The position numbers were made by a program, and so were the translations under genes. The notes under the pieces are model-generated. The model did not search any database. It was given only the letters and a program-made list of their open reading frames with translations, and was not told the origin of the DNA. A DNA stretch of 64,000 bases from Basidiobolus meristosporus CBS 931.73 (Eukaryota; Basidiobolomycota; Basidiobolomycetes; Basidiobolales; Basidiobolaceae). This document shows, one piece after another, positions 23,593-64,000 of the stretch. The stretch lies in assembly GCA_002104905.1 (NCBI GenBank), contig MCFE01000072.1, positions 121,202-185,201 on the forward strand, in the 5' to 3' direction. The stretch's first letter is position 1; each line of letters opens with the position of its first letter.

Positions 23593-24939
23593 CTAGGCGG
23601 AGGCTTCAATCTTGGCCTCGTTTTCGTCAGTATTGTTGGTATCCTTGATACCACCGACAAGAATGTAGGTGAAGGGGATGGAGAATGCAAACAATGCCCA
23701 GTTGAGGATCATTTGGGTCAAGAAAGCCGTTCCAATTGCGTCAATTCTCCATGAGATGGCGCCTCCAATCGACTGGATGGCCTTGGCATATCCTGCATAC
23801 TGGGCAAGAACAGTGGAGTCGTTGGAGAGTGACCCGAGGATCCAGAACACAAGTGTTTGGCACAAGGCGTCGCAAAGACCGAACAGCACATACAACAGCC
23901 ACTTGGGCCAGAATGCTCCGGGTGTGTCGATGAAGTCGAGGTCACGAGGGTGGTCCTCACGAGTGTATTGCAATTGCAAGGCCAAGCATCCTCCCCACAC
24001 GGCCATGCAGATGGTGCTGACTGCGGTCAACGCATACAGTCCCTTGGTCTTACGGTCATATCGGGGGGTATCCAGGAAGCGGCCAAGAGCGTAGGCGCCG
24101 AGCATCTCAAAGGCCCAGTAGAACACGTTGTTCCACGAGCGAGAGCGAACACTGAACAGAACGCCGTTGATGGCTCCGAACTCATAGGAGTAGTAGAAGG
24201 TCACGCAGAACAGGAATGGGGTGATCAGCAGAATCTGCTTGTGGGTGAACACCTTGAAGGTTCCGATCACCTCCTTCATGATGTTGGTGTCGAACTTCTT
24301 GACTGGGACCTTGGACCCATCGTCACGGACCACCTTGGATGGTGGGAGCAACAGCCAACTGATGGCCGCTCCGACAATCATGATTCCCAGGAATGCAGCA
24401 TATGTGCCATCACTCACCGCGCCAGCGTTGGAGTTGAAGTTCATGCCGAATGGAATGAAGCCACCTAGCACACCTCCGAGGTTGAACACGATGAAGAAGA
24501 GTCCGACCGCCTTGCCCTTCTGTCCCTCGGACGGGTACGACATCATGATCACACCTTGGGCTGTCCACAGACAAGCGGCACCAAGACCCAACACTGCACT
24601 GGCTCCGATGACGAATGCCTTGTTGTGAGTGTGATTGTAGTTGAGGAGAGAGCCAGAGTAGAGAGCATAGCAAAGGCCACCGATGCACAAGGTGAGACGG
24701 ACACCGAGGAAGTTGTACATGGCTCCACCGAAGAAGCCAAACACGGCGAAGGCTGCATACAAGGCGACGTTACCGTCCTTGGCGGTACTATCGTCCATCT
24801 GGCCACCGGCTCCCATGCCGTTGATGACGTTGTACATGCCGGGGCAGCAGAAGCAGACCATTCCTACAAGGAAGACCTGGAAGATTGGATCATTGTAGCG
24901 GATGCGCCCGAAAAGCTTAATGTTAGAAAAGTCTTTCAT
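23593..24939 (-). CDS. UNC93-like MFS membrane protein, copy A
   Basis: Multi-span membrane protein of the UNC93-like branch of the major facilitator superfamily; substrate unknown. Intronless, 448 aa. I chose ATG 24939 because copies B and C start at the same residue (MKDFSNIKLFGRIRYNDP) and a TATA element lies about 55 bp upstream; a longer open frame to 25017 runs past that TATA. About 12 hydrophobic segments are visible. Family-like stretches are FQVFLVGMVCFCCPGMYNVI near residue 20, GAACLWTAQGVIMMSYPSE near 130 and YALGRFLD near 300. The protein is nearly identical to copies B and C except for the last 11 residues (here DENEAKIEASA). The UNC93-like assignment rests on remembered family patterns. 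Confidence 0.82.
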   Translation of the reverse strand: MKDFSNIKLFGRIRYNDPIFQVFLVGMVCFCCPGMYNVINGMGAGGQMDDSTAKDGNVALYAAFAVFGFFGGAMYNFLGVRLTLCIGGLCYALYSGSLLNYNHTHNKAFVIGASAVLGLGAACLWTAQGVIMMSYPSEGQKGKAVGLFFIVFNLGGVLGGFIPFGMNFNSNAGAVSDGTYAAFLGIMIVGAAISWLLLPPSKVVRDDGSKVPVKKFDTNIMKEVIGTFKVFTHKQILLITPFLFCVTFYYSYEFGAINGVLFSVRSRSWNNVFYWAFEMLGAYALGRFLDTPRYDRKTKGLYALTAVSTICMAVWGGCLALQLQYTREDHPRDLDFIDTPGAFWPKWLLYVLFGLCDALCQTLVFWILGSLSNDSTVLAQYAGYAKAIQSIGGAISWRIDAIGTAFLTQMILNWALFAFSIPFTYILVGGIKDTNNTDENEAKIEASA

Positions 24940-24993
24940 GACAGAAAGAAGAATGGGAAGAACTTGATGCTCAGCAGACGCGGGAAGGGGACA

Positions 24994-25000
24994 TTTTATA
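24994..25000 (-). promoter_or_regulatory. TATA box, MFS copy A
   Basis: TATAAAA on the minus strand, 55 bp upstream of the chosen ATG at 24939. Equivalent boxes precede copies B and C at similar distances although the surrounding sequence does not align. Confidence 0.6.
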
Positions 25001-25174
25001 CAGTATTTTTTTTTCACCGTTGTTATCAGCTTCTAGTACTCGGACATCATCACTCCACTAGGCAATTCTTAATATATCTCTTCCCTAATATAACGGCGTT
25101 TTGCGGAGCTTATGCGTATGGTAATGGTAGCAATCAATCATCTTGCCTTTCAGATATTCCAAGACTTACTTTAG

Positions 25175-25381
25175 ACACATGATCCCCTATATCTAGTAGA
25201 GTGTGTAACCTCATCAGTGTTCCTTCACCAAACCTATACACCTGCGATAGTCGCTTTATTCAAAAATATTATCCGCCATTGGCCTTCCAAACCCAAGCAG
25301 TACTGGATTCCAATTGGAGTTTCCATTTATGGTGCGATTGGTTATCTGTTAGCCAGTGCTGTGGAGCTTTATCATGAATAA
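25175..25381 (+). CDS. Possible small membrane protein, terminal exon only
   Basis: A plus-strand open stretch follows a possible acceptor (TTTAG at 25170-25174), with another after CAG at 25217, and ends in TAA at 25379-25381. The encoded tail reads TPAIVALFKNIIRHW, then PKQYWIPIGVSIYGAIGYLL and ASAVELYHE: a basic segment followed by one hydrophobic span, the look of a small mitochondrial inner-membrane subunit. A first exon ATGCGTATG with donor at 25119 would join in frame, but this is weak. I do not recognise the family, and it could be chance. Confidence 0.25.
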   Translation, partial: THDPLYLVECVTSSVFLHQTYTPAIVALFKNIIRHWPSKPKQYWIPIGVSIYGAIGYLLASAVELYHE

Positions 25382-25862
25382 GTCTATGGATCAAGTCTGT
25401 GTAACCGTACACACCCGCTCATTTTCGGGCTATATCGTTCGGGATCCACCCTGTTGCCTTGAACACATCACTGAAATCCACACTTTTCCCGCTTTGTTTC
25501 CCTCACCTTTCCTCTAAATCGGACAAATCCCCTAGTGGCTTTTTCCGATGGTAGTTGCGACAACGTGATTTCCTTTGAACACCCGCTTCGCTTCTTATCC
25601 CCTTGAGCCTCATAGCGGAGTTTACTTATTCGGAAGGGATCACAAACCCATCTGATTCGTTCCCTAAAGTCAACGTATCGTGATTGTTGGGATGGATTTT
25701 CACTTTTGGCATTGGGCTGAAATGGAAATTTCCTTGATATTTATTGTGGTTTGTTAGTAGTTTATTGATCTGGGTGGAAAATTAATGTACATCAGCAGTG
25801 TTTCCTGACCATTTCTAATTGAATATTGTCAGCATTGATTAGTGCGATAGTGATCTCTAGGA
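25382..25862. other. Intergenic between MFS copies A and B
   Basis: I see no gene. It does not align with the A-side or C-side flanks. Confidence 0.5.
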
Positions 25863-27209
25863 CTAGGCGGCTGCCTCGATCTTGTCTTCACTTTCCTCAG
25901 TGTTGTTGGTATCCTTGATACCACCGACAAGAATGTACGTGAAGGGGATGGAGAATGCAAACAATGCCCAGTTGAGGATCATTTGGGTCAAGAAAGCCGT
26001 TCCAATTGCGTCAATTCTCCATGAGATGGCGCCTCCAATCGACTGGATGGCCTTGGCATATCCTGCATACTGGGCAAGAACAGTGGAGTCGTTGGAGAGT
26101 GACCCGAGGATCCAGAACACAAGTGTTTGGCACAAGGCGTCGCAAAGACCGAACAACACATACAACAGCCACTTGGGCCAGAATGCTCCGGGTGTGTCGA
26201 TGAAGTCGAGGTCACGAGGGTGGTCCTCACGAGTGTATTGCAATTGCAAGGCCAAGCATCCTCCCCACACGGCCATGCAGATGGTGCTGACTGCGGTCAA
26301 CGCATACAGTCCCTTGGTCTTACGGTCATAACGAGGGGTATCCAGGAAGCGGCCAAGAGCGTAGGCGCCGAGCATCTCAAAGGCCCAGTAGAACACGTTG
26401 TTCCACGAGCGAGAGCGAACACTGAACAGAACGCCGTTGATGGCTCCGAACTCATAGGAGTAGTAGAAGGTCACGCAGAACAGGAATGGGGTGATCAGCA
26501 GAATCTGCTTGTGGGTGAACACCTTGAAGGTTCCGATCACCTCCTTCATGATGTTGGTGTCGAACTTCTTGACTGGGACCTTGGACCCATCGTCACGGAC
26601 CACCTTGGATGGTGGGAGCAACAGCCAACTGATGGCCGCTCCGACAATCATGATTCCCAGGAATGCAGCATATGTGCCATCACTCACCGCGCCAGCGTTG
26701 GAGTTGAAGTTCATGCCGAACGGAATGAAGCCACCTAGCACGCCTCCGAGGTTGAACACGATGAAGAAGAGTCCGACCGCCTTGCCCTTCTGTCCCTCGG
26801 ACGGGTACGACATCATGATCACACCTTGGGCTGTCCACAGACAAGCGGCACCAAGACCCAACACTGCACTGGCTCCGATGACGAATGCCTTGTTGTGGGT
26901 GTGATTGTAGTTGAGGAGTGAGCCAGAGTAGAGAGCATAGCAAAGGCCACCGATGCACAAGGTGAGACGAACACCGAGGAAGTTGTACATGGCTCCACCG
27001 AAGAAGCCAAACACGGCGAAGGCTGCATACAAGGCGACGTTACCGTCCTTGGCGGTACTATCGTCCATCTGGCCACCGGCGCCCATGCCGTTGATGACGT
27101 TGTACATGCCGGGGCAGCAGAAGCAGACCATTCCTACAAGGAAGACCTGGAAGATTGGGTCATTGTAGCGGATGCGCCCGAACAGCTTAATGTTAGAAAA
27201 GTCCTTCAT
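25863..27209 (-). CDS. UNC93-like MFS membrane protein, copy B
   Basis: Intronless, 448 aa, same protein as copy A apart from its C-terminal tail (EESEDKIEAAA). Nucleotide differences from A are few and mostly silent (for example around 26160, 26330, 26720 and 26900). The flanks share nothing obvious with those of A or C. The 5' leader is under 55 bp from TATA to ATG. Three near-identical copies in 6.3 kb suggest a dosage-selected transporter or ongoing gene conversion; both are inference. Confidence 0.82.
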   Translation of the reverse strand: MKDFSNIKLFGRIRYNDPIFQVFLVGMVCFCCPGMYNVINGMGAGGQMDDSTAKDGNVALYAAFAVFGFFGGAMYNFLGVRLTLCIGGLCYALYSGSLLNYNHTHNKAFVIGASAVLGLGAACLWTAQGVIMMSYPSEGQKGKAVGLFFIVFNLGGVLGGFIPFGMNFNSNAGAVSDGTYAAFLGIMIVGAAISWLLLPPSKVVRDDGSKVPVKKFDTNIMKEVIGTFKVFTHKQILLITPFLFCVTFYYSYEFGAINGVLFSVRSRSWNNVFYWAFEMLGAYALGRFLDTPRYDRKTKGLYALTAVSTICMAVWGGCLALQLQYTREDHPRDLDFIDTPGAFWPKWLLYVLFGLCDALCQTLVFWILGSLSNDSTVLAQYAGYAKAIQSIGGAISWRIDAIGTAFLTQMILNWALFAFSIPFTYILVGGIKDTNNTEESEDKIEAAA

Positions 27210-27256
27210 TGCGAGAGATTGATGAATTCTGATATGATAGCGACGGAACTCCTGCG

Positions 27257-27264
27257 TTTATATA
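27257..27264 (-). promoter_or_regulatory. TATA box, MFS copy B
   Basis: TATATAAA on the minus strand, 48 bp upstream of the ATG at 27209. Confidence 0.6.
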
Positions 27265-28577
27265 CGGATGCGGTGCCATGAAGACTATTGATATCCAAAG
27301 TCTTTGCGTTACCTGAAAGACACAATCTTACTCAGGAGACTCTTCGGAGCAATCGTTTGTGGAGAATCTACGGAGCTAACTGTTTGAAGATTCCAGCAAA
27401 GCCCATATTTAGGACCTCTTTACGCATCAGTTACCATAGAGCAAGCACCATATTCGATCGGTACCGATATGATTGGTAGAGGGGTTGACAACGCACTTGA
27501 TCCTGGCGAGTTGGTAAGTATCCATGTCTCGATACTTGGTTAAACAAGATCTAGAACTGTTGGGAATGTATGGACATTAAAGCGGCATAATTCTACATGA
27601 AAATGAAGTCGTGTCTATGGAGTAAAGATACCTGACCCTCCGTATATGGCTATCCGAAGTCCACCTCGAAATAAAATGGGGAAGCGTGGAGCAAATGAAC
27701 ACACGCCTAGTGAAGTGATAGCACGGCTTGCGTTCTGGTATAAGCGCATCTAGGCATTCAGGAACACATCTCGATTCCCTAATACGCGTTACTTTTAATT
27801 CCAATAAGAATCGATTCCGAACGGGGTAGTGGTCAATCACATGTATAGCGGCTACTATTGGCTCTCCCCCATATGGAGAATTGTCGAATCGCTCATTTGT
27901 CATTGTAGTGCATGACCCATTTATAATATGTACACGGTTATAGATCAGAAGGTTAATGTCAATTGAATTTAATGTATCCCAAAAGAGATCCGGGAACTAG
28001 ATTCTGATCATTTAAAGCAAACAAGCGTATGTGTATACCAGATAGAGCAACTCCGCTCGTTATGCCTATTTTGGTAACACTGTTACCTTTACGAAAATCC
28101 TTTACACGGGCGTAGAATGTCATTTCCAAAATACCCAACTTGAGGTTGGCCTCTTCGTTTTTCTTATGGAATTAAAAGCTTTAAGAACCTGCCTTTTATG
28201 ATCAGCATAGCCAGGATAAATGTTTTTAGTGAAGCAACGACTGTTTGAGCCTTGGCGAGTGATCATCGCTAGAACGAATTTCCCAGGCCACAGTCTAATT
28301 CGATTTCTCAGAATCGTCCTACCAGATATCATCGTTCAAACACTTTGGGATACAAACATGCGCGTGAAATTCCTGTTGACCTCCTGGTTTTGACCTCTCA
28401 ACAAAATCCGCGTTGTCACATGAGAACTTTGTGCTTCATTGTAACGAACTATTTATTATGATTGTATGATTATTGTATACAAAATTTTGATGATATTTCT
28501 TCAGGAAACAGCTATTCTATGAAACTTAAGAACCGACCTTGACGAGGTCCCATCTTGTTTCGTTTTCGAATAGCAGG
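27265..28577. other. Long spacer between MFS copies B and C
   Basis: 1.3 kb without a recognisable gene. The open frames present (for example 27577-27903 minus) have no family resemblance or intron support. Confidence 0.5.
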
Positions 28578-29924
28578 TTAAGCAGCTGCCTCAATCTTTT
28601 CTTCATTTTCCTCAGTGTTGTTGGTATCCTTGATACCACCGACAAGAATGTACGTGAAGGGGATGGAGAATGCAAACAATGCCCAGTTGAGGATCATTTG
28701 AGTCAAGAAAGCCGTTCCGACTGCGTCAATTCTCCATGAGATGGCGCCTCCAATCGACTGGACGGCCTTGGCATATCCTGCATACTGGGCAAGAACAGTG
28801 GAGTCGTTGGAGAGTGACCCGAGGATCCAGAACACAAGTGTTTGGCACAAGGCGTCGCAAAGACCGAACAGCACATACAACAGCCACTTGGGCCAGAATG
28901 CTCCGGGTGTGTCGATGAAGTCGAGGTCACGAGGGTGGTCCTCACGAGTGTATTGCAATTGCAAGGCCAAGCATCCTCCCCACACGGCCATGCAGATGGT
29001 GCTGACTGCGGTCAACGCATACAGTCCCTTGGTCTTACGGTCATATCGGGGGGTATCCAGGAAGCGGCCAAGAGCGTAGGCGCCGAGCATCTCAAAGGCC
29101 CAGTAGAACACGTTGTTCCACGAGCGAGAGCGAACACTGAACAGAACGCCGTTGATGGCTCCGAACTCATAGGAGTAGTAGAAGGTCACGCAGAACAGGA
29201 ATGGGGTGATCAGCAGAATCTGCTTGTGGGTGAACACCTTGAAGGTTCCGATCACCTCCTTCATGATGTTGGTGTCGAACTTCTTGACTGGGACCTTGGA
29301 CCCATCGTCACGGACCACCTTGGATGGTGGGAGCAACAGCCAACTGATGGCCGCTCCGACAATCATGATTCCCAGGAATGCAGCATATGTGCCATCACTC
29401 ACCGCGCCAGCGTTGGAGTTGAAGTTCATGCCGAATGGAATGAAGCCACCTAGCACACCTCCGAGGTTGAACACGATGAAGAAGAGTCCGACCGCCTTGC
29501 CCTTCTGTCCCTCGGACGGGTACGACATCATGATCACACCTTGGGCTGTCCACAGACAAGCGGCACCAAGACCCAACACTGCACTGGCTCCGATGACGAA
29601 TGCCTTGTTGTGGGTGTGATTGTAGTTGAGGAGTGAGCCAGAGTAGAGAGCATAGCAAAGGCCACCGATGCACAAGGTGAGACGGACACCGAGGAAGTTG
29701 TACATGGCTCCACCGAAGAAGCCAAACACGGCGAAGGCTGCATACAAGGCGACGTTACCGTCCTTGGCGGTACTATCGTCCATCTGGCCACCGGCTCCCA
29801 TGCCGTTGATGACGTTGTACATGCCGGGGCAGCAGAAGCAGACCATTCCTACAAGGAAGACCTGGAAGATTGGATCATTGTAGCGGATGCGCCCGAAAAG
29901 CTTAATATTTGATAAATCTTTCAT
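28578..29924 (-). CDS. UNC93-like MFS membrane protein, copy C
   Basis: Intronless, 448 aa. The start is MKDLSNIKLF at 29924 by analogy with copies A and B; an upstream in-frame ATG at 30119 lies beyond the TATA and would add a non-conserved extension. It differs from copies A and B by Leu at residue 4, Val for Ile at two positions near the C-terminus and the tail EENEEKIEAAA. Most silent sites agree with copy A (for example the ATATCGGGG stretch near 29043), others with B, as expected from patchy conversion. Confidence 0.82.
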   Translation of the reverse strand: MKDLSNIKLFGRIRYNDPIFQVFLVGMVCFCCPGMYNVINGMGAGGQMDDSTAKDGNVALYAAFAVFGFFGGAMYNFLGVRLTLCIGGLCYALYSGSLLNYNHTHNKAFVIGASAVLGLGAACLWTAQGVIMMSYPSEGQKGKAVGLFFIVFNLGGVLGGFIPFGMNFNSNAGAVSDGTYAAFLGIMIVGAAISWLLLPPSKVVRDDGSKVPVKKFDTNIMKEVIGTFKVFTHKQILLITPFLFCVTFYYSYEFGAINGVLFSVRSRSWNNVFYWAFEMLGAYALGRFLDTPRYDRKTKGLYALTAVSTICMAVWGGCLALQLQYTREDHPRDLDFIDTPGAFWPKWLLYVLFGLCDALCQTLVFWILGSLSNDSTVLAQYAGYAKAVQSIGGAISWRIDAVGTAFLTQMILNWALFAFSIPFTYILVGGIKDTNNTEENEEKIEAAA

Positions 29925-29965
29925 GTTGAAGAAGATGGCTTGAAAGAGAGATGAGCCGTTGCCAC

Positions 29966-29972
29966 TTTTATA
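29966..29972 (-). promoter_or_regulatory. TATA box, MFS copy C
   Basis: TATAAAA on the minus strand, 42 bp upstream of the ATG at 29924. Confidence 0.6.
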
Positions 29973-30136
29973 CCTTCTCTGCTCAACCGCCAACTCCATG
30001 ATCGGCTGGACCACAAAATGCTCGTTTCGTTCAGTCCACATTTGAATGCAAGGTAACTCACTGGGCGAATCAGCAAGTGGTAGTGGCGGAGTTTCCGGAT
30101 TAGGGATTTTTTTGTGCAATTGCCGTACCTTAACAA

Positions 30137-31474
30137 CGACTACTAGAATGGAAGAGAATGCTTCAATATTAGAAAGAAAGAGCTAATACGGCATCTTATG
30201 GTCTTCAAAAGTAATTAATATTTCTTGATTCTGTGCATATTGCAAGCCACCAAGGATGACCATGCCAGATGGTTATAACTTGGGGACATCGCTCGGTAAC
30301 TCCTTAGGAGTCGCGACGTCCGGAAACGACCTGGTTTTGGTTAAATTAAGTAACCGGAGAGATTATTTCGAGGCAGCCATGACCTTGCACCTAGGCAAGA
30401 GTTAATGGTGGATGTTGGGGAGAAGTAGTAAAGCATCCTCCGGCTAAGGAACTTAGTTGACCCATCAACCACAGTAAAAGTAAATCTCATGACAGCCCGA
30501 ATATGGCCACACAGGAGTTTTTGTGTTGTGATCAATAGAAATCAGAGAGTGAGAATCGTATCGGTAGTACCAATAACACCATATCTAGATTTTTCACGCA
30601 GCAGGTTACTAGCCCTTCGTGAACTTTTCTGGCAATCACAGTTTCTAGGTCTTGGAGTTGAAGATTCTCTGCCTTGAATGGAATCCATACTGAGGTAACG
30701 CTCACCGCTGCATCATTGCTAAAAAAGGATTAGCTCATGAGAGTGTTCGTTTTGGTAGTATTATCTACTACTTTATTGACCAGCAATGTTTTTGCTGGGA
30801 CACGCGATATACGATTGTCATGCGTTTTTTCAGTCCTTGAGATAGGTAGCCCCACTGGGGAATTGATCGAATACCTGTTGCCGAAAAGCTTCTAGATTTT
30901 ACGGAGATTCCCGTGCAAAGGAATTGGGGATAAATGTCATGGAATATTACAATCTCGAAGTATTGCAGAATAATGAGCCCTAATTGCAAACTTTACAAGT
31001 GTAACGATTAATTACCGGGAGGGTAGGGTAGGGTAAGGCAGGGCAGGGCTCTAAATTATATTCCTATATATAAGGTTGTCGATTGGTGATGGCATCACGT
31101 GACTCTGTAGCGTTATGTCCGCCTGATACGGCTTATGTAAAGGCTTACGGTATATGATTTATTCGGATGCTAATACATGTGGATTGTATCGGATTTTGCC
31201 TGATATATATACGTGTCATGCATTCATTTCGTTGTAGCCCTACAAATTAAATCCCAAGTAGATGATTCATAATTCAGCAATAAGCTAAATAGAATCTTAA
31301 GGTGTATGTTGAAGATTTTTAACGAATTCAAGTAGCTGGATTTAGATGCTTGTAACCGAGGAGGGTTGACAAGGATTTGTATAAAGCATAGAGCATTGGA
31401 GTTTCTATTGTTTTTGTTTACAGATGATATTCATGGTTTTTCAAAATAGTCTGATAGTATCTCCAAATACAGCA
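30137..31474. other. Spacer, no gene seen
   Basis: No recognisable coding sequence. A G-rich tract at 31020-31048 (GGGTAGGGTAGGGTAAGG and continuing) resembles a degenerate telomere-like repeat. Confidence 0.45.
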
Positions 31475-55565: not shown

Positions 55566-57287
55566 GAGATGGAGTCAGCTGTTAGCGTCCTAACGCAGTC
55601 AACACTCATCGTTCTAAAAATAGAAAGCTTGTCAAGTGGGACTAATAATCTGCGTTGCAAACAGAAAAAGGAATTTGCAATATCCCATCCATCCACACCC
55701 TCAGCGTATTTGGCAGTTTGTGCTATCTGAATGTTAAATTAGATGGAATTTCTTGAGATCCGAGGCAGGCGAAAGATAGGCAAGGTGTAATTCAAACACT
55801 GTATGTGTCCGACTATTCTTGGGAGTTACTCCTTTAGGCTTGCAGAGCTCAAGAGGATGTGCTCGATATATAGCAACAAAGATATTTCTGAACGAGAGTT
55901 TTGTTGTAGTTTGAACTGTTCGGATCCACTGCTCATCTTGTTATAAAGAAGCGGCTGCTATACTAGAATCTATCAAGTCTAAGGATACTCGATGCTAACT
56001 TCCGGTTACTATGATGAAGTTTGGTGATTTCCATTTTCAGTCCTCGATGCATCTTAGTGACCAAAGTGGATAATAATTCTAGCTGAGCTGAAATCTTAGT
56101 GAATAATAATTCTAGCTGAACTGAAAGAACGTTGAGGATTGTGCATTATGGTAACACGGTATGGCCTGCTGACTGCACAAGAGCAAACGCATGGATCCCC
56201 AGGGATAGCTGCTGCCTCGCATACTATTCCCTCCTTGTCATGACAGCAGTAAGCCCCACTGTTCATGTTTTGAGGTCATTTATAGAAAAAGTCGGGTATA
56301 CAAAGCGGCAGAGGGAAGTCTATCTAGCTTTGATACCTGATGTTTACGTTGTGGCATACGTATCATAATAATTCCTAATTATCGGTTGTACAGTACTACT
56401 TGATAATATAGCTGTCATCACTTGGCTGATACCACTTGAATCAAGGCATTGGTAAAAGGCATTCCTCTCCGGGTCCCATTCCAACTCATTAATTTGGGGT
56501 AGAATAGCTGAGTTGCAGCTGGTGGATTACATTGGGTTCACATTGCGGAGATCTGATTCCTGGGTATGTGGTACAATTTTTAGCGCGATGCATAATTGAT
56601 TCCAGGATGGGGTTCAAGGTGGCTTTAGGATTGGTTTAGCTCATAAAATTCAGAAGGGATAAGGGTATGACTTCACCAACAGGTAAAATCTTTATGTCAA
56701 TAACTCAAAACAAAGTCAAGTACTATAAGGGTAATTTTTTACAAGTAAATAAACAGAAGGGCATTATGAGAAAGAATGAAAAGCAAAGGTCACTAAGCTC
56801 AAGAGGAGTCATCATAGAGTTAGGTGCTACTGAAAGGATAACTAGAGGCAGTAGTGGTGCATCCATAACTGTAACCAAGTTAGAGAAGTATGGATTGGAG
56901 GAAAGTATGAATGAGTTATGGTGGATGAGGTAATTCCTTCATAAGTTGGAGGTGTATGAGGCATAGGCAAGTACTGGGTTCTTGAAGACTTGAATATACT
57001 ATTTCAACTGCTGCATCTGGGAGTTCCCACACATTATTCTCAAACAGGGCTGTGGGTTGGTGTAATATTGCCAAGCCACTCTCTAATTTGAGGGCACTGG
57101 CACTGGTAAGCATGACTAATACCCAGCAAGCAACTGATTACCAATTTTAGTATGAGTGCTAATTGGCCTATTCTCCTCTAGAAAGGATGGGTGCTTGTAT
57201 ACTGTGAAGCTAGTACCTAAGATATTTAAAGTTGTTACTTTTGTGAAAGTTAGAATTCAGCTGATATCATGATGGTGTTCTGCAGGT
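55566..57287. other. Subtelomeric spacer, no gene seen
   Basis: No protein family is recognised. A degraded LINE/SINE tail lies at 56670-56697 (TTCACCAACAGGTAAAATC, then TTTATG). Confidence 0.45.
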
Positions 57288-57814
57288 TAGGGGGGAGGAA
57301 AGTCACCAAGTGGTGAAATCTTTATTTACTTATGACAAGTATCTAAAGAAGCCAAGTTAATCTGAAGTTATTCCTAGAAAGCTAGGTCTGAGAGATATCT
57401 TCCTGGTAAGCCAGGTCTGACAGTTGGGAAGCTGAGTGGTACTATATTTCCTAGTTAGCTAGGTCTGAGAGTGGTTTCCTGGAAAGCCAGGCCTGAGAAG
57501 TGAGAATCTGAATATATTTGAGCTAAGTTATACTGGTTTGCTGTAGCTGAATTGTGGCCGGAATGGCCAGTAGACTGGGGGAACTGAGAGGAATTTCTGG
57601 GCAATCACTGGCCAAATTTACTAGGCAAATCTGGCCAATTAGCATTTCAAGGATTTCAGCCAATCAGAGCCTTTACTTTGCCCAATGGTTGATCAGGCCA
57701 TCTCCCAATGAGCACACATCAATTTATTAATCAAATTTTGTTGGATCCAGGATTTGAACCCACAACCATGGGTATGGAAGGGTTAGGGATAACCACAAGG
57801 CTAAGTGTTCTTGG
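57288..57814 (-). mobile_element. tRNA-headed SINE, copy 1 (full length)
   Basis: About 527 bp. The minus-strand 5' end has RNA polymerase III promoter boxes: A-box-like TAGCCTTGTGG (57803-57793) and B box GGTTCAAATCC (57760-57750), spaced as in a tRNA. The 3' end carries AAATAAAGATTTCACC, a hairpin (57304-57315), then GACTTTCCTCCCCCCTAACC. It is followed on the plus strand by TTAGGGG. No open frame. The tail is the same as in the neighbouring LINEs, as in known LINE-dependent SINEs. Confidence 0.8.
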
Positions 57815-57892
57815 TTAGGGGGGATGATCATCACCAAGGGTTAGGGGAGGAAAGTCACCAAGTGGTGAAATCTTTATTTACTTATGACACTT
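57815..57892 (-). mobile_element. Two ultra-short truncated retroelement tails between telomere repeats
   Basis: 57815-57842 reads TTAGGGGGG, then about 15 nt of degenerate tail ending CACCAAG, then GGTTAGGGG. 57843-57892 is the last ~50 bp of the SINE tail (hairpin at 57856-57867), again followed by TTAGGGG. They are extreme 5' truncations of the same elements. Confidence 0.65.
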
Positions 57893-59342
57893 AGGGGGGA
57901 GACAGTCACCAACAGGTGAAATCTTTATTTCAGTTGAAACAAAGAAGCCAGTGCTACTGTTGTAGCTTTGATACAAGAGTGTGTAGCTGAGGGGAATTAG
58001 TAGGTAAGCTAATAAGAAGTGATGATAGTTCTTCAGTGCTCAAGACACTGTTCAGTGGGAAGGGGGGTAGCAAGAGAGGTAAGAATGACTTGTGAACAAC
58101 ATTAATGAGGGGAATGTGATAAGGGTTGATATTCATCATAAAGGGAGTGTGCTGCTGCAGATATTGCTGCCAAAGGTCTGTCAAGTACTTCAGGTAGGCC
58201 AGCTTGGGTTTTTCTGACTGCAGAATATAGTGAGCAAACTTCTTGACTTCAGGATCTCCAAGTATAGTTCTCCAGCAGGAGCCAGGTGTTGTGTAGTGTG
58301 TTCTCTTCCAGGCCTTAATCAGTGGGTTGTTGCAGTTGTGAAGTCTGAGGTATAATCTGGTTCTAAGGTAGAGAAGTCTGATCTTATAGGGCATAAACCC
58401 AAAAGCACCAAGAATAGCATGTCTGTAGGGGCATTCAGGCAAATGAGGCACCAAGGAGGTAATGCACCATACTGCAAACTTGTCAAGCTTAGTGCAGTCT
58501 CTAGAAGTAAGAGAGAGAAGTGGTAAGCCAAATTCCAGGACAGGGAAGACAAACTGCTTGAGTAGAAGAAGGCAGCTGGGAGCTGAAGTTGTAGGAGGAG
58601 TAACAGCCAGTAGCTTGTGGAGTGCCTGTCTTGCCAGGATAATTCACTTCTTCAGGTGTGCTCCAGAGTCTAGTCCAGTAGAAGGAAAGGAAAGCCAAGA
58701 TATGTAGCGGAAACCTGAGCAGGTAGAGTGGAGTTCTCCAAGTTGATGGGAGAGCCCAGAAGGTACTGTCTTTGCAATGGAAAGCTGGAGATTATTCTTC
58801 TGCAGATACTGGTGGATGGTCTGGGAGTCCTGTTGCACATTGGAGGAGGATATTCTGATGTCATCAGCAAAGAGAGTAACCAGGCAGTCAGCTGAGAGTC
58901 TTGGGAAATCATTCAGAAAGATGGCAAACAGTATAGGACCAAGCACAGAGCCTTGAACCACTCCATTAGGAACTGAGAACACTGGTGATTGCTCACTTGG
59001 GTGCAGAATTCTTGCTTGTGGATCCAGAAACAGAGACCTGACAAGGAGGGTGAGAGAGGTACTGGAGAAGCATTGCAACTTGGACCAAAGCAGATTTCTG
59101 TCAACTGAATCAAAGGCCTTAGTAATATCAAACAGAACTGAGGGATACTTGCACTGGAGAGAGTGATCTTGGCTAAGTATGACTGCATATTCCAAGGAGA
59201 GGCCAGGAACAAAGCCAAACTGTGCAGGATGAAACTTGAGGGAGTCAGAGTAGAGCTCCTGAGCAAGCAGAAGCTCAAACACCTTTCTGCAGGTGGGCAG
59301 CAGAGATATTGGCCTGTAGGAGCTAGGATCCAGGTGCTTTCC
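57893..59342 (-). mobile_element. Non-LTR retrotransposon (LINE), family A, 5'-truncated
   Basis: The minus strand encodes one frame from about 59340 to 57954 covering reverse transcriptase and C-terminal domain. Motifs: SYRPISLLPTCRKVFE, FGFVPGLSLEYAV, VLFDITKAFDSVDRNLLW, GVVQGSVLGPILFAIFLND and LFADDI (FADD active site), then the thumb and PVLEFGL. A single in-frame TGA at 58646-58644 interrupts it (HLKK-stop-IILARQAL). Family B has Arg there (NNRIRLAQQAL), so a CGA-to-TGA change is likely. No endonuclease is present because the 5' part is missing. The 3' tail hairpin is at 57907-57918. The 5' end abuts TTTAGGGTTAGGGGG. Confidence 0.9.
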
Positions 59343-59346
59343 TTTA

Positions 59347-59609
59347 GGGTTAGGGGGAGGGAAAGTCACCAAGTTGGTGAAATCTTTATTTGAGTTAAGA
59401 ACTAATCTAGGTACAAATAAAGAAGCCAATTAAGAGGTCTAGAACCTCTCTAATAAGTAATCTAATTTATGTTTTGTTTCATCTCTAATGTTTGTTTCAA
59501 TAAAGTAAAGCTCATCAGGGGTAAATGTAAAATTCAGGGGTTTTGGGGGAAGTACAAATTGTAGATGTTTCTGATCAATATAATCCAAGACTGGAACCCA
59601 GCCTGGGAT
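59347..59609 (-). mobile_element. LINE family B, short 5'-truncated copy
   Basis: 263 bp nearly identical to the 3' end of the family B element at 63156-63411, with hairpin at 59367-59379. It is truncated where the coding sequence reads PGWVPVLDYID. A telomere-like TTAGGGGG follows directly. Confidence 0.85.
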
Positions 59610-60070
59610 TAGGGGGAGGGAAAGTCACCAAAGTAGGTGAAATCTTTATTTGATTTCAGACAAGTCTAACTACAAATAAAGAAGCCAGCTGGGAATAGAA
59701 GATTCCCAAAGTAAACACTAAGTTGAATATGAATAAATCTAAGCTAAAGTTAAGGCAGTATCCCAGAGTACACTGGAGTTCAGGTTCATGGGGGAGTGAA
59801 GTAGATAAGCTTGAGAGATATAATAATCTTTGAGGAAGTGGGTAACAGCAGGTGAAGGAGTTTTGATAGTGAGGGTGTAGGTGTTATAGTAAGGGCTAGA
59901 AAAAGGTTAGAAGAGCAGGGGGTCTGGGGGACGCAGTCCCCTAGAGAATGAAAAAAGCAGGGGGTTTGGGGGATGCAATCCCCCATACTGCTCTTATACT
60001 CTTTAAATTCCCGTTGGATTACTTTTCTCTCATTCTTGGTTCTGGTCCCTTAGGGTTAGAATTCCTCCTC
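59610..60070 (-). mobile_element. LINE family C tail, 5'-truncated
   Basis: It has the shared tail (hairpin at 59626-59639, then AAATCTTTATTTG and AAAGAAGCCA on the plus strand) but different upstream sequence from families A and B. A minus-strand open stretch at 59986-59786 (66 codons) may be its coding end. Two 40-bp spaced copies of GCAGGGGGT.TGGGGGA.GCA lie at 59917-59985. The left part is certain; the right border near the TTAGGGTTAG at 60052 is approximate. Confidence 0.6.
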
Positions 60071-60440
60071 CTAACCCTTATCACCCTAACCATAGATATT
60101 TTTACCCTACAATTGGCACATTGTCTGCTCATATGGTGGGCATGTCTGGGCCAATATTTGTCTCCCTATACTGTCCATATGCTCTGTATAAGTCTTGATG
60201 ACTATTTAATTAATAAATTGTTATTTTTAATATATATCTAATAATTAATGGGATTCATCCCAATCTGACCACAATCCCATATTTTGATAAGCTTGGGCAC
60301 CATAATATTGCGCGGCCCTAATATGATAAAAAAATTCATGGCCAATACAAATTTTCTGTAACCCGATTGCTTTTACCAAATATAAAGTGTATCCAAAAGT
60401 TCAATATATATTATGGCTATAATAGAAACTTTATTGGACA
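60071..60440. other. Subtelomeric spacer before satellite
   Basis: Contains AACCCTTATCACCCTAACC at 60075-60093 (telomere-like, opposite strand sense). No gene recognised. Confidence 0.4.
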
Positions 60441-61300
60441 CCATCGCAACTACTACTTATGTTCTATGCGCACATGTATCCCGCGGGAATTGTAAAACTT
60501 AGCCACGTGGTACAAAAGTGCTTTAATTTTTCATCATGATAGTTTTACATGAGTTCCTAACGCACTTTGAAAGTACGCAGTAGCCATACCCCAACAGGTT
60601 TTAAGGATGTCCACTAGCTACGTCTACTTGTGTCTAGCGGAGCCATCAATCATCAGCCGCGCAATACTGAAATGCTTTTATTTTTCATCATGCTAGTTTT
60701 GTATGAATCCCTAACGCACTTTCATAGTGCGCGGTAACCATACCCCAACAGGTTTTAAGGATACCCACTTGCTACGTTTACTTGTGTCTAGCGGGAGTCA
60801 TCAATCATCAGCCGCGCGGTAAAAAAGTGCTTTTATTTTTCATCATGATAGTTTTACATGAGTCCCTAATGCACTTTTATAGTGCGCGGTAACCATACCC
60901 CAACAGGTTTTAAGGATACCCACTTGCTACGTTTACTTGTGTCTAGCGGGAGTTATCAATCATCAGCCGCGCGGTAATAAAGTGCTTTTATTTTTCATCA
61001 TGATAGTTTTACATGAGTCCTTAACGCACTTTCATAGTGCGCGGTAACCATACCCCAACAGGTTTTAAGGATACCCACTTGCTACGTTTACTTGTGTCTA
61101 GCGGGAGTTATCAATCATCAGCCGCGCGGTAATAAAGTGCTTTTATTTTTCATCATGATAGTTTTACATGAGTCCCTAACGCACTTTTATAGTGCGCGGT
61201 AACCATACCCCCAGAAAGTAGTGTGGATGCTTACTTTAAACGCTCACTTGTGTATTGTACGGAATATCAACAAACAGCCGCGTGGGAATGGAACATCATA
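60441..61300 (+). repeat. 155-bp subtelomeric satellite array
   Basis: The marker CATCATGAT/CATCATGCT occurs at 60532, 60686, 60841, 60996 and 61151, spacing 154-155 bp. Three central units are almost identical; the outer ones are increasingly diverged (first from about 60441, last to about 61300). Each unit holds a hairpin-forming GCACT...AGTGCGCGG and a conserved CCATACCCCAACAGG. Confidence 0.92.
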
Positions 61301-61457
61301 GAAAAGCATTGCTTTGTTGTTAGCAAGTATTGATGCGCAAATAGTGGTACTATGTGAATTATTGAGTAACTATTTACTCTAGTTGGTTCCAAGATATTCC
61401 TAGACAATATGCTCAAAATCAATATTAGCATCAATAGCTTGCTCTTTGATCACTAAA

Positions 61458-61480
61458 CCACCGCACCCAATATGCGGTGG
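61458..61480. other. Perfect 8-bp stem hairpin
   Basis: CCACCGCA, 7-nt loop, TGCGGTGG. It is alone between the satellite and the orphan frame; function unknown. Confidence 0.6.
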
Positions 61481-61610
61481 CCTTGGTTTTGTCTAGCCGT
61501 CGAGGAATGAAACCAGAGTACAGTCACAAGAGAGGCAAAAGTGAAATGTGATGAAGTAAGTGTATATGAAAGTAATATAAATCTACAGGACAGAAGAGAA
61601 CAACTAGTAG

Positions 61611-61934
61611 TTAAACAGCACTCACTGACACTCCACCAAGTAGAGCACCAACACGGACAATAAACAAGTCATGAGGGGAAAGCTTAAGGACCGCTACTTG
61701 GGGATCAAGACCAAAAGAGGAAGCTGCCTCTACCATAGCAGTCCTTGCGCTCCAAAGGAAGACCAAGAGTCTATTATAGACAAAGATTGCGGCAAGAAGA
61801 GCAGTACAATTACCAGTTCTGGTAGTGGTACCTTTGGAAGTCCAAATACATGGAGAAAACTCGGAAAAATTGGCAGATGACTCAGTTGTCCTGAGGAGAA
61901 AACAAACCAATGCAATTGAGCAGTTCCGAAACAA
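61611..61934 (-). CDS. Orphan 107-codon open frame, possibly a truncated element
   Basis: Mixed hydrophobic sequence, unrecognised (ends HDLFIVRVGALLGGVSVSAV). Its 5' side meets telomeric repeats 24 bp upstream (61958 on), the same arrangement as the truncated retroelements, so it may be the coding end of another element rather than a gene. Confidence 0.25.
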   Translation of the reverse strand: MFRNCSIALVCFLLRTTESSANFSEFSPCIWTSKGTTTRTGNCTALLAAIFVYNRLLVFLWSARTAMVEAASSFGLDPQVAVLKLSPHDLFIVRVGALLGGVSVSAV

Positions 61935-61957
61935 ACTTCAGCTTAGTTCTCTTTAGG

Positions 61958-61987
61958 GCTAGGGTTAGGCTAGGGTTAGGGTTAGGG
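61958..61987 (+). repeat. Interstitial telomeric repeats
   Basis: GGGCTAGGGTTAGGCTAGGG then TTAGGGTTAGGGG: about five TTAGGG-type units, two variant, joined to the tail of SINE copy 2. Confidence 0.9.
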
Positions 61988-62509
61988 GGAGGAAATTCAC
62001 CAAGTGGTGAAATCTTTATTTACTTATGACAAGTATCTAAAGAAGCCAAGTTAATCTGAAGTAATTCCTAGAAAGCTAGGTCTGAGAGATATCTTCCTGG
62101 TAAGCCAGGTACTGAGAGTTGAGAAGCTGAGTGGTACTATATTTCCTAGTTAGCTAGGTCTGAGAGAGGTTTCCTGGAAAGCCAGGCCTGAGAAGTGAGA
62201 ATCTGAATATATCTGAGCTAAGTTATACTGGTTTGCGGTAGCTGAATTGTGGCCGGAATGGCCAGTAGACTGGGGGAACTGAGATGAATTTCTGGGCGAT
62301 CACTGGCCAAATTTACTAGGCAAATCTGGCCAATTAGCATTTCAAGGATTTCAGCCAATCAGAGCCTTTACTTTGCCCGATGGTTGATCAAGCCATCTCC
62401 CAATGAGCACACATCAATTTATTAATCAAATTTTGCTGGATCCAGGATTTGAACCCACAACCATGGGTATGGAAGGGTTAGGGATAACCACAAGGCTAAG
62501 TGTTCTTGG
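61988..62509 (-). mobile_element. tRNA-headed SINE, copy 2 (full length)
   Basis: About 95% identical to copy 1 by eye. A-box-like 62498-62488, B box 62455-62445, hairpin 61998-62009. The 5' end is at the same base as copy 1 (CCAAGAACACTTAGCC on the minus strand), which marks the true SINE 5' end. TTAGGGGG follows at 62510. Confidence 0.85.
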
Positions 62510-62513
62510 TTAG

Positions 62514-63019
62514 GGGGAGGAAAGTCACCAAGTGGTGAAATCTTTATTTACTTATGACAAGTATCTAAAGAAGCCAAGTTAATCTGAAGTTATTCCTAGA
62601 AAGCTAGGTCTGAGAGATATCTTCCTGGTAAGCCAGGTCTGAGAGTTGAGAAGCTGAGTGGTACTATATTTCCTAGTTAGCTAGGTCTGAGAGAGGTTTC
62701 CTGGAAAGCCAGGCCTGAGAAGTGAGAATCTGAATATATCTGAGCTAAGTTATACTGGTTTGCGGTAGCTGAATTGTGGCCGGAATGGCCAGTAGACTGG
62801 GGGAACTGAGATGAATTTCTGGGCGATCACTGGCCAAATATACTAGGCAAATCTGGCCAATTAGCATTTCAAGGATTTCAGCCAATCAGAGCCTTTACTT
62901 TGCCCAATGGTTGATCAAGCCATCTCCCAATGAGCACACATCAATTTATTAATCAAATTTTGTTGGATCCAGGATTTGAACCCACAACCATGGGTATGGA
63001 AGGGTTAGGGATAACCACA
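62514..63019 (-). mobile_element. SINE copy 3, truncated inside the A box
   Basis: Nearly identical to copy 2. B box 62982-62972, hairpin 62526-62537. It stops at CTTGTGG of the A box and is joined to GGTTAGGGGG, so this copy could no longer be transcribed from its own promoter. Confidence 0.85.
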
Positions 63020-63023
63020 AGGG

Positions 63024-63127
63024 TTAGGGGGAGACAGTCACCAACAGGTGAAATCTTTATTTCAGTTGAAACATAGAAGCCAGCGCTACTGTTGTAGCTT
63101 TGATACAAGAGTGTGTAGCTGAGGGGA
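63024..63127 (-). mobile_element. LINE family A, 100-bp truncated tail
   Basis: It matches 57897-57998 of the family A element, hairpin 63039-63050, and is truncated just inside the last codons of the frame. Telomeric repeats follow. Confidence 0.85.
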
Positions 63128-63155
63128 AGGGTTAGGGTTAGGGTTAGGGTTAGGG
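63128..63155 (+). repeat. Interstitial telomeric repeats
   Basis: Four TTAGGG units in a row ending in TTAGGGGG at the LINE B tail; the cleanest telomeric tract in the window. Confidence 0.95.
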
Positions 63156-64000
63156 GGAGGGAAAGTCACCAAGTTGGTGAAATCTTTATTTGGGTTAAGA
63201 ACTAATCTAAGTACAAATAAAGAAGCCAATTAAGAGGTCTAGAACCTCTCTAATAAGTAATCTAATTTATGTTTTGTTTCATCTCTAATGTTTGTTTCAA
63301 TAAAGTAAAGCTCATCAGGGGTAAATATAAAATTCAGGGGTTTTGGGGGAAGTACAAATTGTAGATGTTTCTGATCAATATAATCCAAGACTGGAACCCA
63401 GCCTGGGATTAGGTGTAGTAGGAAAGGTGTGTGGACTTGTAAGTAGCTCTGCCACATAGATCTTAGATGGTCCTGAGCCAGTAGTCTTGGTTTCTCAGCT
63501 TTTTGAAGTTTTGAAGCAAGCTCTGTTACTACAGCAGAGCCAACCAGGGTGTGCCAGCAAGAAGATTTCAGGGAGGAGTTAGATTGAAGCCATTGTTTGA
63601 TGGAGGGGTTATGTGATTTCTGAAGTTTGACTAGGAAGGAAGCCTGGAGATAGATCATTCGGATTTGGTATGGGTAGAACCCAAAGGCTCCATTAGTTGC
63701 ATGGATATAGGGAGATACTGGAAGATAAGGTACCAAGGATCTGATACACTGATGGAGAAATTTATCCAGGCGGTGAAGTTCTCTGGAGGTTAGGGGTATA
63801 ATGTGGAGACCAAATTCAAGTACTGGCAGCACATACTGCTTCAGAAGTATAGGGATCTTTTGAATTGGAGTGTCTGGAGTGACTACTACCAGAAGCTTTT
63901 TGAGAGCCTGTTGGGCAAGACGGATCCTATTATTCAGGTGGAGCTTTGAGTCAATCCCATGTTGACAAAACGGCAGACCTAGATATATTGCAGTTTGTTG
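63156..64000 (-). mobile_element. LINE family B, 3' part, continues off the window
   Basis: The minus-strand frame is open from the right edge (64000) to the stop at 63239. At the edge it reads IYLGLPFCQHGIDSKLHLNN (RT thumb), then RIRLAQQALKKLL and VLPVLEFGLHIIPLTSRELH, followed by a C-terminal domain roughly a third identical to family A (AFGFYPYQIRMIYL versus AFGFMPYKIRLLYL). Tail hairpin 63167-63179. No break is seen, so this copy may be intact and active; the catalytic part lies beyond the window. Confidence 0.88.

Follow-up and report, generated by a model that had tools for sequence, protein, structure and literature searches.

Retroelement array at a contig end

We analysed a 64,000-nucleotide stretch of the Basidiobolus meristosporus CBS 931.73 genome (contig MCFE01000072.1, positions 121,202 to 185,201; hereafter the window), whose right end carries a head-to-tail array of long and short interspersed nuclear elements (LINEs and SINEs) joined by their 3′ ends to the G strand of the telomeric repeat TTAGGG. 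Nine exact copies of the tail sequence GGTGAAATCTTTATTT start on the plus strand at 57312, 57864, 57915, 59376, 59636, 62006, 62534, 63047 and 63176, none occurs on the minus strand of the window, and each of the nine is preceded by TTAGGG or by TTAGGGG plus further G. The TTAGGG-joined 3′ ends in one orientation, at least nine, that a first-pass annotation of this DNA had described are therefore real. Read on the minus strand, each copy runs from the body through AAATAAAGATTTCACC-loop-GGTGA and a C-run to CCTAA. With 6 copies of the motif TTAGGGTTAGGG in the window where 0.01 would be expected, chance is excluded as the source of the tail array. Local-alignment scans returned no copy on the opposite strand of the window with two tails as queries, and none in one shuffled window with one tail as query.

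The array starts earlier than 57288, where the first-pass annotation had begun it, and is not made of LINEs and SINEs throughout. A decayed older LINE in array orientation (56661–57076, minus strand, as are the retroelements that follow) retains a tail relic to about 56695 (scan score 42 of 66) and an open reading frame 2 (ORF2) C-terminal relic at 56786–57076 (tblastn, 33% identity over 99 amino acids, E 4e-11). A nearly full-length SINE A (57287–57814) is joined to non-array DNA by one TTAGGG; its tail (57287–57372) exemplifies the shared form, TGGCTTCT ... AAATAAAGATTTCACC-loop-GGTGA ... C-run, as seen in aligned copies and hairpins. Beyond it lie a short tail-like piece, TTAGGGGGGATGATCATCACCAA, decayed or abortive (57815–57840; stretch L048 holds a similar piece), a SINE A tail cut after about 45 bases (57841–57890) and a 5′-truncated LINE C with the reverse transcriptase (RT) and C-terminal part of ORF2 in a broken frame (57891–59343; tblastn, 94% to LINE C ORF2 at 57957–59345). 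Two TTAGGG units with a LINE B 3′ fragment (59344–59608; 94% to LINE B of contig C1) and a LINE D 3′ fragment with the shared tail (59609–59872; 93–99% to D fragments on contigs C1 and C2) precede a non-LINE segment (about 59873–61953), which has 155-bp tandem repeats at 60501–61211 and belongs to a repeat that recurs at other contig ends. A degenerate telomeric tract (61952–61989, G strand on plus) then leads into a full-length SINE A (61983–62509; 528 bases, B box GGTTCAAATCC), a SINE A with slight 5′ truncation (62510–63023), a roughly 100-base LINE C 3′ fragment (63024–63131), four TTAGGG units (63132–63155, plus strand) and a LINE B that continues off the contig end (63150–64000; C-terminal 253 amino acids of ORF2). 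The window shares its end, position 185201, with the contig (C1002 in our numbering; 185,201 bases), and because this end falls inside LINE B no assembled cap is present there; caps are found on other contigs.

LINE families

Tail sequence divides the elements into four families: A, which is the SINE, and the LINEs B, C and D. The first-pass view that several LINE families and a SINE take part stands, with the LINE families now named B, C and D. Coding regions were observed for B and C only, family D being known from 3′ fragments. LINE C ORF1, at the end of contig C353, spans 417 amino acids from stop to stop and has a CPNC...CKC motif. ORF2 of LINE C spans 922 amino acids on contigs C3 and C436, matches RVT_1 (Pfam, E 2e-24) and has LINE-1 ORF2p as its best PDB matches. 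LINE B open frames reach 949 amino acids in many copies, and ORF2 is 50% identical between B and C. Many copies are 5′-truncated. With a predicted LINE-type RT, ORF1 and ORF2, 5′ truncation and no long terminal repeat (LTR), these elements are LINEs (non-LTR retrotransposons). Among the best 48 of 1,888 candidate places for LINE C ORF2, 45 are stop-free and all are 98–100% identical over the aligned part; although this choice is biased toward intact copies, LINE C looks recently active. The extra N terminus of a 951-amino-acid ORF on C1 was rejected as element protein, since it arises from in-frame reading of a different LINE C's tail.

LINEs B and C each have ORF1 and ORF2 in the same frame with one stop between them, in the shared context TCTGCC TGA CTA (stretches L053, L075 and L080). 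UGA CUA is a stop-codon readthrough context, so a putative ORF1–ORF2 fusion protein made by readthrough is likely. At the LINE C 5′ end on C353, beyond the ORF1 start, two TTAGGG units, about 40 other bases and then a SINE tail follow (L080, 1559–1573); these two units may or may not belong to the LINE C 5′ untranslated region (UTR).

The QET motif of apurinic/apyrimidinic endonuclease-like (APE) enzymes carries a glutamate. Ahead of the RT, Exo_endo_phos_2 matches that score below the curated Pfam cut-off (E 0.0005–0.002) occur in two copies of LINE C and in one fragment of LINE B, and the endonuclease-like region is 38–40% identical between B and C. LNCN, GD.N and SDH are kept in ORF2 of both families, and at the QET glutamate position both read Asp (LIDV). 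The predicted model of the region is poor (mean pLDDT, the predicted local distance difference test, 43). The first-pass annotation had proposed that a full-length LINE B be checked for an endonuclease: the frame of up to 949 amino acids does include the region homologous to that of LINE C, but the copy in L075 yields no endonuclease in Pfam (E up to 1) or PDB (E up to 10). Together, these features are weak evidence that the ORF2 endonuclease is APE-like. Motifs of the restriction-enzyme-like (REL) type (C-C-H-C, RHD/RPD) are found neither in the 922 amino acids of LINE C ORF2 nor in the C-terminal 253 of LINE B; judged by these motifs rather than by an RT tree, the elements would fall outside the CRE clade of MoTeR, FoTeR and Cnl1.

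SINE A and the shared tail

SINE A is about 528 bases long (514–529), with a perfect B box and an A-box-like site with 2 mismatches. Three copies contain no T4 run, ARAGORN reports no tRNA in the SINE and an Rfam search was likewise without a match. Short, non-coding and equipped with a predicted internal RNA polymerase III (pol III) promoter and a LINE-shared 3′ end, the element has the predicted make-up of a SINE. Its tail is found 410 times in the assembly, and TTAGGG adjoins a slightly shorter form of the tail 354 times. TGGCTTCT, AAATAAAGATTTCACC and TTGGTGACT recur as identical blocks in A, B, C and D bar one edge letter (two copies of each aligned), and the stem TCACC/GGTGA is kept across tails while the loop varies in length. 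A 3′ tail that a SINE has in common with its LINEs is the hallmark of their being copied by a single RT. SINE copies (for example 57287–57814, minus strand) also contain four consecutive inverted repeats, CCTGG...CCAGG, CCTAG...CTAGG, CCTGG...CCAGG and CCTAG...CTAGG, in which changes match on both arms, suggesting possible tandem hairpins in the SINE RNA.

Genome-wide position and orientation

The host assembly (89,006,234 bases in 1311 contigs) contains 1,705 tail matches, 1555 forward and 150 reverse, most of the reverse ones counted without single inspection; (TTAGGG)6 matches, overlaps counted, number 6568 forward and 68 reverse. Telomeric arrays lie almost always at right contig ends, which points to systematic orientation of contigs during assembly. 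Since contig orientation produces this skew, position was tested contig by contig, on contigs of at least 40 kb, a copy passing if it lay within 30 kb of the end predicted by element orientation. Contigs are numbered lexicographically by size rank; the 31 sizes that are known decrease monotonically with rank, and the rest are interpolated, two that were read later deviating by 1–2%.

Copies lie overwhelmingly at the predicted end: 86 of 88 junctions with two units (among the matches listed, 100 of 118), 41 of 42 ORF2 copies (from the best 48 of 1,888) and all 121 endonuclease-region matches (among the matches listed, 149 of 150 rows), against 26–29% expected by chance; the ORF2 and endonuclease-region lists overlap partly in the elements they describe. 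All 49 SINE tails do so too (among the matches listed, 100 of 410), against 18% by chance. Arrays at left ends show the mirror orientation. As a control, a tail beside CCCTAA instead of TTAGGG was sought across the assembly and found 0 times, against 569 beside the G strand. The single-orientation attachment to TTAGGG that the first-pass annotation suggested looking for across the assembly is thus genome-wide: the elements sit beside telomeric repeats in one orientation to the end, as telomere-specific retroelements do, and internal copies are rare.

Three internal places, on C726, C558 and C402, fail the position test; a fourth, C136:42597, comes from the C-family junction list, outside the test. 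Inside C726 (L076, 55501–62500), two arrays diverge from a common piece some 240 bases long. On C558, three tails that share an orientation lie about 98 kb into the contig, and C402 and C136 hold one cut or decayed tail each. Such copies may mark chromosome ends of the past, or elements may on rare occasions attach internally. They remain far below the many non-telomeric or both-orientation copies named by the first-pass annotation as incompatible with its reading.

Chromosome ends and telomerase

At the five capped ends read (C1, C2, C45, C83 and C353), the array passes into 191–238 bases of TTAGGG at the contig end. The terminal element on C83 is a SINE whose 5′ end is complete (CTTGG) and continues directly into TTAGGG in a phase identical to that of SINE ends bordering another element. 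The telomerase RNA-binding domain PF12009 gave two adjacent exon-like matches on C880 (E 2e-8 and 1e-6), one of them with an internal stop; from these matches, telomerase is probably present in the host. Capping by telomerase, as first proposed, agrees with both the caps and the encoded domain.

Junction anatomy

Among 59 distinct junctions whose tails are intact in the stretches read, TTA directly precedes the G-run at 52. One complete TTAGGG unit is present at 43, two at 8, four at 1 and no clean unit at 7. Assembly-wide, 118 of the 569 C-family junctions have at least two exact units. The G-run measures 5 letters in 17, 6 in 45, 7 in 23, 8 in 6 and 9 in 7 of the junctions (among the matches listed, 100 of 569), with another letter in 2 of the 100 rows and a pattern that allowed at most 9 G. 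Some fragments extend for about 10–50 bases before the next element begins. Attachment to non-array DNA is by a single unit (window 57281–57292), and no T-run lies beside the window tails.

Comparison with known telomeric retroelements

HeT-A, TART and TAHRE of Drosophila attach to free chromosome ends, SART and TRAS of Bombyx are APE-type, and Gladyshev and Arkhipova (2007) reportedly found endonuclease-deficient Penelope-like elements with telomere-complementary 3′ letters at telomeres. The Penelope-like elements represent another RT class, whereas ORF2 here is closest in PDB to LINE-1 ORF2p. Drosophila has no telomerase and its elements have poly(A) tails, whereas here we find TTAGGG caps and a telomerase domain. 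The Drosophila elements resemble the present arrays in lying head to tail with 3′ ends toward the centromere (PMC10088271), and the orientation seen here fits a HeT-A/TART-type attachment to a free 3′ end. SART and TRAS are likewise LINEs of telomeric repeats, in which a part of the 3′ UTR that resembles the telomere may base-pair with the target site, but they have poly(A) tails and a defined (TTAGG)n site (PMC7265360); the elements here end in a C-run and CCTAA, and the missing T-run at the window tails sets them apart from SART/TRAS.

Among fungi, MoTeR1 and MoTeR2 of Magnaporthe oryzae also form head-to-tail telomeric arrays in which 5′ ends face the chromosome end, (TTAGGG)n separates the copies, some copies are 5′-truncated and LTR elements have inserted (PMC7367193). 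MoTeR1 is a CRE-clade element with an REL endonuclease and the one LINE family there; MoTeR2 shares its 5′ and 3′ ends and is a non-autonomous partner with a common 3′ end, as here, although the available text does not describe it as a SINE (PMC7367193). MoTeR tracts reach more than 20 units (PMC7367193), whereas junctions here mostly have one. In the present system REL motifs are absent, the LINE families number three or more and the SINE is tRNA-like. FoTeRs of Fusarium oxysporum are telomere-only LINEs with the 5′ end toward the chromosome end and TTAGGG on the 3′ side; they differ in their REL endonuclease, their place in the MoTeR1/Cnl1/CRE clade and their 3.0 to about 8 units on the 3′ side, and the available text mentions no SINE (PMC12857005).

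These MoTeR and FoTeR precedents narrow the claim of the first-pass annotation that such a system was undescribed in a fungus. Telomeric LINEs and, for MoTeR, arrays with a non-autonomous partner were known; those elements are REL-type, with no SINE named in the text available, and what appears new is the combination of candidate APE-type LINEs and a tRNA-like SINE at telomeres. MoTeR1 is the sole fungal element named in a 2023 paper that deals with telomeric retrotransposons and that, in the text available, lacks the word SINE (PMC10088271). Our literature search, to which subscription papers were mostly external, returned no telomeric SINE and no fungal APE-type telomeric LINE.

Proposed mode of attachment

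Tails adjoin the telomeric G strand only, element 5′ ends face outward along the chromosome, and long TTAGGG tracts cap those ends that were read. Because the element always lies on the growth side of a G-strand 3′ end, the G strand would be the primer. We propose, with a probability of about 0.62, that these are telomere-attaching LINEs, with a SINE that uses their machinery through the shared tail, and that the chromosome 3′ end primes on the C-run of their RNA. A LINE protein would bind the tail hairpin of LINE or SINE RNA, and a chromosome 3′ end in TTAGGG would pair with the C-run at the RNA 3′ end and prime cDNA synthesis, which would lengthen the G strand in the outward direction. Copying would often halt early, and the new end could receive a telomerase cap or, while bearing about one repeat, serve as primer again; repeated cycles would build a head-to-tail array. 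The C-rich RNA end would act like the template of telomerase RNA, and variable pairing of the C-run with GGG may account for the variable G-run. End priming or templating would have RNA 3′ ends at CCCCCTAA, not poly(A). Priming itself we infer: of the first-pass suggestion that the elements prime on the telomeric G-overhang or cut within the repeats, orientation supports priming on the G strand, and the priming 3′ end could be that of a free overhang or one exposed by nicking the repeats.

The single unit has three possible readings: it was copied from CCUAA of the RNA, it marks ends that telomerase had just begun to extend, or it is what later loss left of longer tracts. A tentative extension of the first is that RNAs ending in CCCCCUAA are alternative telomerase-RNA-like templates, with the LINE RT extending free ends, broken ones included, by copying TTAGGG from the element RNA; chromosome ends would then be the joint product of telomerase and four or more retroelement families. 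If true, pol III would, in transcribing the SINE, produce a non-coding template for chromosome ends.

Target-primed insertion that depends on an endonuclease and a G-strand nick in double-stranded TTAGGG, as for SART/TRAS and as suspected for MoTeR, with long tracts later breaking and shrinking, would also give this orientation but seems less likely to us. It would account for the conservation of an endonuclease-like region in LINEs B and C, and internal MoTeR tracts of more than 3 units are reported to be break-prone (PMC7367193). Yet random insertion into tracts of at least 30 units should often leave several units and rarely one, so nascent-end priming or templating better fits the single unit at 43 of 59 junctions, and the attachment to non-array DNA is by one unit also. 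The endonuclease-like region is itself under the Pfam cut-off or not found, has no PDB relative and carries Asp in place of the QET glutamate. We therefore favour end priming over nick-primed insertion. Spread chiefly by recombination or break-induced replication between ends, with retrotransposition rare, is improbable: chromosome ends do exchange sequence, MoTeR arrays are described as undergoing such processes (PMC7367193) and C2 has three adjacent 120-base LINE C pieces, but even neighbouring junctions differ in G-run, units and truncation point, and the spacing of the five SINEs on C96 is uneven (525, 528, 534 and 531 bases). That ordinary LINEs merely accumulated in subtelomeres, or that assembly created the pattern, is largely refuted by the position and strand tests, for although tails are skewed 1555 to 150 on systematically oriented contigs, a few copies are internal and most contig sizes are interpolated, the fixed orientation to the G strand, the wrong-strand count of 0, the mirror orientation at left ends, the lack of a T-run at window junctions and the recurrence of the pattern on many contigs leave it hardly any room.

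Several points weigh against end priming. The endonuclease-like region with its LNCN, GD.N and SDH motifs would be superfluous for pure end priming. The truncation point overlaps TTAGGG letters at only 15 of 31 comparable junctions, and 7 of these 15 are the same SINE end, which leaves truncation overlap as weak support. Single-unit tracts may also reflect later loss of unstable long tracts, which is reported for MoTeR (PMC7367193), the C-run/CCTAA end is read from DNA, and internal copies exist on C726, C558, C402 and C136.

If correct, our interpretation would place a multi-family, non-REL telomeric LINE system beside the REL-type ones of other fungi, and would make SINE A, as far as literature searches reach, the first SINE to live at telomeres by borrowing LINEs. 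Because a single genome offers natural junctions by the hundreds, an old question becomes testable: how LINE reverse transcription and telomerase share an end, which 3′ ends prime and what the RNA end is.

Other elements in the arrays and neighbouring genes

The segment at 59873–61953 was rejected as a LINE and assigned to another repeat, which contains the 155-bp tandem repeats; a longer copy of this other repeat elsewhere includes an SNF2 ORF. This element occurs in the window, in L047 (C80), in L039/L040 (C1) and in L044 (the left end of C1002). Its SNF2-domain ORF (E 6e-14) is accompanied by a second ORF that appears tyrosine recombinase-like by eye and has no match in Pfam, and its border recurs, close to GGGTGTAGG and often beside TTAGGG. 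It is possibly another telomere-associated mobile element.

Ty3/gypsy-type pol sequences (RNase H, integrase) with LTR-like ends also occur in arrays, cut distally by TTAGGG (L043, 4365–5813; L045; L040; L044). We considered a chimera of family D and Ty3/gypsy pol as an LTR element with a LINE tail and rejected it, as the border is LTR-like (TGTTGTATCC or close); this border was met five times beside different sequences, which suggests LTR insertion into arrays followed by distal loss.

Elsewhere in the window, three adjacent, near-identical genes for a membrane transporter-like protein lie at 23593–30182, and a gene for a chitin synthase with a myosin motor was recognized by eye.

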